Below the pieces are notes generated by a model. That model ran no database searches, was not told where the DNA came from, and saw nothing but the letters and a program-made list of their open reading frames with translations. DNA of 64,000 nucleotides from Bacillus pumilus (GTDB taxonomy: Bacteria; Bacillota; Bacilli; Bacillales; Bacillaceae), in contig NZ_CP047089.1 in NCBI RefSeq assembly GCF_009937765.1, positions 3,036,272 to 3,100,271 of the forward strand. The letters run 5' to 3'. The position numbers were made by a program, and so were the translations under genes. Of the stretch, positions 15,921 through 59,718 are shown piece after piece (positions within the stretch are counted from its first letter, which is position 1; every line of letters begins with the position of its first letter).

Positions 15921-15948
15921 AACCCCCTTATCATTTGATAAGGGGGTT
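15921..15948 (+). terminator. proximal terminator hairpin after misCB (no T tract)
   Basis: A 12-bp stem, AACCCCCTTATC (15921-15932) with GATAAGGGGGTT (15937-15948). It is followed by ATAGATTG rather than a T run, so it probably terminates poorly on its own. A near copy at 16125-16152 carries the T tract. Confidence 0.7.
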
Positions 15949-15950
15949 AT

Positions 15951-16124
15951 AGATTGTGGACAAAGTGCTAAAATGATCTTTATTTTAGCACTTTGTCTTC
16001 TTTTCAGTGTGATAGAAAACCTTTGAAGTCTAGGAAGGACGAGCATCGGAGCGGAGCGAATTTAACATTCGTGAGCACCGAAGCGCAGACCTGACACCGA
16101 ATGCAAGGGTTTGTCTACACGCTG
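15951..16124 (+). repeat. 174-nt structured repeat element, copy A
   Basis: This element is present again at 58947-59120 in the opposite orientation, with the same 174-nt length and about ten differences. It contains a 15-bp hairpin (15960-15974 with 15982-15996), then a long closing stem (CAGTGTG 16005-16011 with CACGCTG 16118-16124, extended by TAGA/TCTA and AAACC/GGTTT) that encloses smaller hairpins such as CGAAT/ATTCG. Base changes between copies preserve pairing. It is flanked by duplicated terminator hairpins. It has no protein-coding potential. It may relate to the approximately 190-bp repeats described in B. subtilis and B. licheniformis, but I cannot confirm that. Confidence 0.9.
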
Positions 16125-16158
16125 AATCCCCTTATCATTTGATAAGGGGATTTTCTTT
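16125..16158. terminator. distal terminator copy, with T tract
   Basis: AATCCCCTTATC (16125-16136) pairs with GATAAGGGGATT (16141-16152), followed by TTTTCTTT. It is almost identical to the hairpin at 15921-15948 except for one compensatory pair (C-G to T-A). It serves misCB and, in reverse, may serve the CheW-like gene. Confidence 0.85.
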
Positions 16159-58780: not shown

Positions 58781-58920
58781 ATAGAACCTCCAGCTTTTTT
58801 TACACTATATGCTTGTCTAGCTGGAAGTAGTCTTGTTTTTCGGGAAGGAAAAAAGATGAATGAGAGAATTGAGAGAAGGTTAATCTTTTGGGGAGTCTTA
58901 TATGTTTTACAATAAAAAAA

Positions 58921-58945
58921 GACTGTAAACACAAGGTTTACAGTC
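58921..58945 (-). terminator. distal efp terminator copy, with T tract
   Basis: GACTGTAAAC (58921-58930) pairs with GTTTACAGTC (58936-58945); on the minus strand it is followed by seven T. The stem and loop are identical to those at 59124-59148 on the other side of repeat copy B. Confidence 0.88.
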
Positions 58946-58946
58946 T

Positions 58947-59120
58947 CAGCGCGTAGACAAACCCTCGCATTCGGTGTCAGATCTGCGCTTCGGTGCTCAC
59001 GAATGTCAAATTCGCTCCGCTCCGATGCTCGTCCTTCCTAGACTTCAAAGGTTTTCTATCACGCTGTAAAGAAGACAAAGGGCTAAAATAAAGATCATTT
59101 TAGCCCTTTGTCAACAACCT
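58947..59120 (-). repeat. 174-nt structured repeat element, copy B
   Basis: The same element as at 15951-16124, inverted in the window and with about ten substitutions. In both copies it points the same way as the gene upstream of it (efp here, misCB there). The 15-bp hairpin keeps pairing through a T-A to G-C change, and the closing stem CAGCGTG/CGCGCTG keeps pairing with changes at two positions. It is flanked on both sides by identical efp terminator hairpins. Nothing else was recognised in the 380-bp gap 58781-59160 apart from these hairpins and the yqhV leader. Confidence 0.9.
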
Positions 59121-59123
59121 GAA

Positions 59124-59148
59124 GACTGTAAACACAAGGTTTACAGTC
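59124..59148 (-). terminator. proximal efp terminator copy (no T tract on its own strand)
   Basis: The stem GACTGTAAAC/GTTTACAGTC lies directly after efp. On the minus strand it is followed by TTCAGG, not a T run, so it probably allows read-through into the repeat. Confidence 0.75.
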
Positions 59149-59160
59149 TTTCTTCGTTCA

Positions 59161-59718
59161 TTACGCTCTTGACACGTATGAACCGTCCGATGTATTAATG
59201 ACTAGTTTATCTCCTTGGTTCACAAAGAAAGGAACGTTGACGATTAAACCAGTTTCTGTTTTTGCAGGTTTTGATCCGCCTGATGTCGTGTCACCTTTAA
59301 TACCAGGCTCTGTTTCTACTACTTCTAGTTCTACCGTGTTTGGTAGTTCTACTCCAAGTGTTTCAGCACCGTACATTACAATTTGAACTGACATATTTTC
59401 TAGTAAATATTTCAGCTCATCTTTAATTTGTGTTTCACTTAGTTCAAGCTGCTCATAAGAACTTGTATCCATGAAGACATGCTGGTCGCCATTTGCATAC
59501 AAGTATTGCATTGTTTTTGTTTCGATTTGAGCTTTCGCTACTTTTTCGCCTGCACGGAATGTTTTTTCTTGAATAGCACCAGTACGCAGGTTACGCAGTT
59601 TCGAACGAACAAACGCTGCGCCTTTCCCTGGCTTTACGTGTTGAAAATCCACTACACGCCAAATACCGCCGTCCACTTCAATTGTCAGGCCTGTACGAAA
59701 ATCATTTACTGAAATCAT
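59161..59718 (-). CDS. efp: elongation factor P
   Basis: A 185-residue tRNA-mimicking factor that relieves ribosome stalling at polyproline. Lys32 in the loop KPGKGAAF is the position modified (5-aminopentanol in B. subtilis). Three beta-barrel domains are present; the C-terminal signature is [16 protein letters not shown]. Its transcript should run through the 174-nt repeat into the distal terminator. It lies 25 bases after yqhT. Confidence 0.97.

Follow-up and report, generated by a model that had tools for sequence, protein, structure and literature searches.

The window (the whole 64,000-nucleotide stretch of Bacillus pumilus DNA that was analysed) contains, next to efp, two copies of the hairpin sequence AAGACTGTAAACACAAGGTTTACAGTCT, at 58919-58946 and 59122-59149, both of which adjoin a 175-bp element at 58947-59121. 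Another copy of this element lies between two hairpins at a second site in the window, here called locus A. The features of the two loci are as follows.

58919-58946, no strand assigned: hairpin copy 1 (efp-distal), 28 nt, with a T tract just beyond it on the efp strand
58947-59121, + strand: MITE copy B, 175 bp, CAG...CTG, delimited by a profile match and the alignment of copies
58947-58961, + strand: left terminal inverted repeat, CAGCGCGTAGACAAA, from comparison with IS1182 element ends
59107-59121, - strand: right terminal inverted repeat, reading TTTGTCAACAACCTG on the + strand, from the same comparison
58947-59066, no strand assigned: long hairpin domain based on the left terminal repeat, with many two-sided changes between copies in its inner stem (predicted fold and alignment of copies)
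59074-59112, no strand assigned: internal hairpin of 16-18 bp that overlaps the right terminal repeat and resembles a terminator when read on the efp strand (fold and terminator scan)
59122-59149, no strand assigned: hairpin copy 2 (efp-proximal), without a T tract on the efp strand (terminator scan)
59161-59718, - strand: efp, elongation factor P, the upstream gene (TIGR00038)
15921-15948, no strand assigned: hairpin copy 1 of locus A (AACCCCC...GGGGGTT), from flank comparison
15950-16124, - strand: MITE copy A, in the opposite orientation to copy B (profile match; 15951-16125 in the direct comparison of the two copies)
16125-16152, no strand assigned: hairpin copy 2 of locus A (AATCCCC...GGGGATT), present only once in relatives, L267 among them

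The initial annotation had placed the same element at two loci of the window, each with a duplicated hairpin. This was confirmed, its limits of 58921-59150 at efp being correct to within 2 bases, as was its naming of efp, by the TIGR00038 match. Copies A and B are 94% alike over 175 nt and lie in opposite orientations. The two 28-nt hairpins of locus A are near-identical, with a paired change that affects both arms; a YidC-family gene precedes the element there, and a converging gene, CheW-like at a score below the model's cut-off, lies beyond it. On the efp strand, the terminator scan called two hairpins: the distal one at 58947-58919, together with its T tract, and the one internal to the element at 59112-59074. 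In the same region and strand it did not call the efp-proximal hairpin copy. This bears out the earlier observation that the T tract at efp is limited to the distal copy.

A search of the host DNA gave 74 matches, 40 of them element-long and the remainder short matches of the internal palindrome. Forty of 80 first-look candidates were scored, and further host sites were located with two end patterns. We then built a profile from 28 copies and, applying it to the host loci read, obtained at least 50 full-span copies, plus partial ones. A locus-specific duplicated hairpin flanks 45 of the 50 full-span copies. These score above the 99th percentile of a control in which left and right flanks were mismatched (2,450 pairs), and 44 of the 50 outscore every control pair. 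Under a stricter test, which demanded that the repeats abut the element within 3 nt with at most two mismatches, 36/50 copies pass, with a median repeat length of 24 nt. The exceptions to duplication are L062, L065, L069, L073 and L096, four of which by eye keep a hairpin on one side. Folding of the flanks gave abutting hairpins on both sides of 45 copies, on one side of four and on neither side of one, while shuffled flanks gave hairpins in 8/50 cases on the left and 9/50 on the right. The earlier proposal of a small mobile element that targets terminators is supported. Within each of the loci L016 and L021, the two hairpin copies are distinguished by paired changes that affect both arms, which might mean that the hairpin is maintained or that its arms are copied from each other.

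The element is widespread in the genus, with matches in 38 of 44 genomes. Among its copies in near relatives, 37/38 have a duplicated hairpin at a score of at least 14, and likewise 37/38 by the 99th percentile of mismatched pairs. For distant relatives the figures are 32/35 at a score of at least 14 (31/33 distinct, one locus having been fetched twice) and 30/35 by the 99th percentile. Copies without hairpin duplication thus number 5/50 in the host, 1/38 in near relatives and 3/35 in distant ones. Part of the relatives' duplicated sites are probably common by descent. On a Bacillus subtilis plasmid the MITE is matched in part, over 134 of 177 nt at 83.6%, and the phages searched for it gave no match. 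No weight was given to the plasmid matches under the names Stutzerimonas (two records, which both derive from a mixed culture) and Klebsiella (one record).

Sites without the element identify the target. The efp locus was read in 30 of the 44 matching genomes, 29 of them relatives. In the closest relative (L098, 97.6% identical over the query), one hairpin stands alone with its A and T tracts, and of the 16 relatives with at least 89% identity (L098-L113), 12 are empty, with one hairpin in the stretch read. These single-hairpin empty sites support the view that the duplicated hairpin belongs to the target, as the initial annotation had argued. In L099 and L103 the element lies inside a duplicated hairpin at efp; in L107 an element end is found at a contig edge in the efp terminator, and in L109 a shortened element sits beside, not in, the hairpin. 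The element of L103 is reversed relative to the host copy, and therefore at least two insertions have hit the efp terminator. Locus A was retrieved from 24 relatives, with no local match in three of them. By eye the site is empty, with a single hairpin, in nine of the 24, including the closest relative (96%), and it is occupied or ends in the element in five (L269, L272, L274, L279 and L280). In L272 the element has the opposite orientation and the left hairpin is cut short. Taken together, host flanks, empty efp sites and relatives' copies show a target site duplication, as expected of a MITE.

Gene context was assigned by a crude longest-open-frame method, which gave clear neighbours for 46 of the 50 host copies. 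Thirty lie between convergent genes, 16 between codirectional genes and none between divergent ones, a distribution that fits terminators. The annotation had also proposed that the element constantly points along the upstream gene. This was not supported: among codirectional copies, 11 point along the upstream gene and five against it, the 30 convergent contexts offer no single upstream gene, and the terminators of efp (in L103) and of locus A (in L272) carry reversed elements.

The orientation of the MITE tends to follow the direction of replication, which is inseparable here from gene direction. In five relatives, 111/150 of the matches listed lie in one direction relative to replication, these copies being partly common to the five genomes; the p values per relative range from 0.00004 to 0.039 when the origin is assumed at coordinate 1 and the terminus at dif. 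The bias is weaker in the host (32/50, p 0.065; convergent contexts alone 19/30, p 0.20). A bias of this kind would point to hairpins being attacked where the replication fork exposes them on one strand. In genome G000 the dif-like site is at 2694165, 71% along the contig, and its strand relative to efp differs from that in five near relatives, which a rearrangement or a shifted start could explain.

The host genome also harbours two intact insertion sequences (ISs), of 1503 and 1504 bp, whose terminal repeats match those of the MITE and which both sit inside exact 22-nt duplicated hairpins. Their transposases belong to the IS1182 family according to NF033551 (bit scores of 477.8 and 480.2, the cut-off being 270; E values 4e-143 and 7.9e-144). 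The 175-bp element and the 1503-1504 bp ISs have the ends CAGnnYGTnGACAAA in common; a short element with the terminal inverted repeats of an autonomous one is what defines a MITE. Palindromic targets, which some IS1182 members are stated to have in a review cited in excerpts of PMC5678879 and PMC4923244, are found for this partner IS as well. Searching the intact IS loci with the MITE profile gave nothing at an E value of 10; thus, only the ends are common to the two elements.

Mobilisation in trans had been raised as a possibility in the initial annotation, and a plausible mobiliser would be the IS1182-family element that the host genome carries intact, given its matching ends and its like insertion sites. 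Across the genus, 24/44 genomes match the transposase of this subfamily (subfamily a) at E 1e-30, with two uninterrupted copies of at least 96% identity in the host and five in genome G021. No transposase match at that threshold was found in 17 of the 38 MITE-bearing genomes, so many copies are immobile there now, unless the transposase is supplied from elsewhere. ISBpu1, an IS1182-like element that an excerpt of PMC7820076 names as B. pumilus-specific, may be the autonomous partner in this system.

A second IS1182 subfamily, with a transposase about 46% identical, is present in the genus and also lies in hairpin repeats. Of 15 long IS loci of both subfamilies, 13 had hairpin direct repeats that were accepted (one as a 16-nt part), one had none and one an imperfect repeat, these counts being made without a mismatched control. 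Some loci are composite. At L247, adjacent insertions have one hairpin in common, in the order hairpin-MITE-hairpin-IS-hairpin, and at L017 the second hairpin is followed by an IS end of the other subfamily. Genome G000 contains split IS1182 ends, four left (968866, 2250255, 2437338 and 3691203) and four right (1974641, 2877387, 3589468 and 3630759), which pair by target hairpin across about 0.5 to 1.5 Mb. By eye, six of these eight ends adjoin the edges of rRNA operons, with 5S, 16S or Bacillaceae-1 matches nearby. They reflect either a large rearrangement or an assembly artefact.

We determined the lengths of the direct repeats around relatives of the transposase, using 80 named loci that are the best of 547, several of them from one genome; 73 entered the test, of which 70 had flanks long enough for it. 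In 63/70 IS loci there is a palindromic direct repeat of 14 nt or more, with lengths of 19-36 nt (median 25), and none is found in the mismatched-locus control (0/73); the remaining 7/70 have no duplication. The first and last bases of the repeat can pair in 57 of the 63 cases. The outer six positions pair at a frequency of 0.91 when read symmetrically and at 0.32-0.56 at shifts of 1-4. Because the repeats were chosen for their palindromic content, the register of their edges, rather than the pairing itself, is the independent evidence. The length of the duplication thus tracks that of the hairpin, with edges in register with the outermost pair, which implies shape-guided cutting at the feet of the hairpin.

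The MITE has a mean column identity of 91% over 43 aligned copies, and its consensus fold comprises 50 pairs. Two-sided changes affect eight of these 50 pairs (43 of the 50 copies being aligned), chiefly in the inner stem (three pairs) and the terminal hairpin (one pair). The transcript of the efp strand has a predicted fold of -101.8 kcal/mol (z -8.58), in which both hairpin copies pair with each other instead of folding apart; if formed, this mutual pairing would weaken the claim that the distal terminator is active. The MITE has no open frame of at least 80 residues, which its 175-bp length forbids in any case, and Rfam gave no match in the window at the gathering score.

We consider it probable (roughly 85%), on the strength of sequence comparisons, that the MITE is moved in trans by an IS1182 transposase that recognises terminator hairpins by their shape and duplicates the whole hairpin. 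From the geometry of the insertions, the transposase would recognise the terminator hairpin as an extruded cruciform or as a single-strand hairpin, and would join the element to the two 5' feet of that hairpin. Gap repair would then leave one full hairpin on each side of the element, the outcome that is seen in the sequences. The A and T tracts are not part of the hairpin and hence remain external to the duplicated pair, so that transcripts reading across the insertion still include a far-side hairpin followed by its T tract. If it functions, the terminator would be kept for those transcripts, which would make terminators low-cost landing sites.

The hairpins might instead be part of the element and travel with it, the target not being duplicated, and they do adjoin the element at nearly all loci. 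We regard this as almost certainly wrong, since their sequence is locus-specific, that at efp is identical to the single hairpin of the closest relative's empty site, and empty sites with the same hairpin once are seen at both efp and locus A. It is also very improbable that insertion is random and survives only in terminators, recombination or slippage having produced the duplication afterwards: terminators are permissive and intergenic survivors are expected on general grounds, but survival does not by itself account for duplications that adjoin the element, vary in length and coincide at their edges with the hairpin.

The second IS1182 subfamily, rather than the one intact in the host, is an unlikely source of the transposase. 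Its insertions do have duplicated hairpins and its open copies occur in more relatives, but its ends read GAGAAA, and it is because the MITE and subfamily a both have GACAAA that we tie the MITE to the latter; moreover, the host genome contains only partial matches to the second subfamily, at about 43-45% identity. That the mobile element is in addition kept as a functional RNA or 3' UTR element is also unlikely, though somewhat less so. The compensatory changes and the strong predicted fold speak for it, but arm-to-arm copying, or a few ancestral lineages spread by transposition, would also explain such changes.

For most transposases, the distance between the two cuts determines a duplication of constant length. 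For the IS1182 transposase, we lean slightly towards a DDE transposase without a fixed duplication length, which would read the shape of the hairpin, cut both feet whatever its size or sequence, and preserve the terminator that it invades. As the duplication follows the size of the target hairpin over 19-36 nt, shape-guided cutting is directly testable. This mode of insertion may be the reason why the genome bears dozens of copies of the element without damage to genes or terminators. Locus-specific hairpin pairs may also serve as barcodes that tell which element ends were partners before a rearrangement.

Group IIC introns, like the present element, insert beside terminator hairpins. They differ from it in that they are RNA-mediated and are not known to have terminal inverted repeats or a target duplication. 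ISfinder reportedly lists long direct repeats for the IS1182 family. In 1997, Kunst and colleagues reportedly described an intergenic repeat of 190 bp, a size near that of the MITE, in the genome of the related species Bacillus subtilis. In the part of the open-access literature that was consulted, we found no description of this element or of a MITE in terminators, and excerpts of PMC3281130, PMC9208149, PMC3196728 and PMC3098183 contained no decisive evidence. The BOX, RUP and SPRITE repeats of Streptococcus pneumoniae are likewise small and intergenic, and SPRITE is terminator-like, but whole-hairpin target duplication is absent from their description in the excerpt of PMC10969869.

The closest likeness is with IS1272 and the composite TnSha1 of staphylococci, as described in excerpts of PMC5678879 and PMC4923244. 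These also have an IS1182-family transposase and target hairpins without a common sequence, many of them terminators, in both orientations per target. They are described there as deleting the hairpin wholly or partly and leaving no target duplication, whereas here the whole hairpin is retained on both sides, in 63/70 IS relatives and 45/50 MITE copies. In the model presented in PMC5678879, duplication of the whole hairpin is drawn as an alternative pathway b, and the present insertions look like its products. Thus, as far as these excerpts go, hairpin targeting is known for the IS1182 family from IS1272, and duplication of the whole hairpin had earlier only been drawn as a possible branch.
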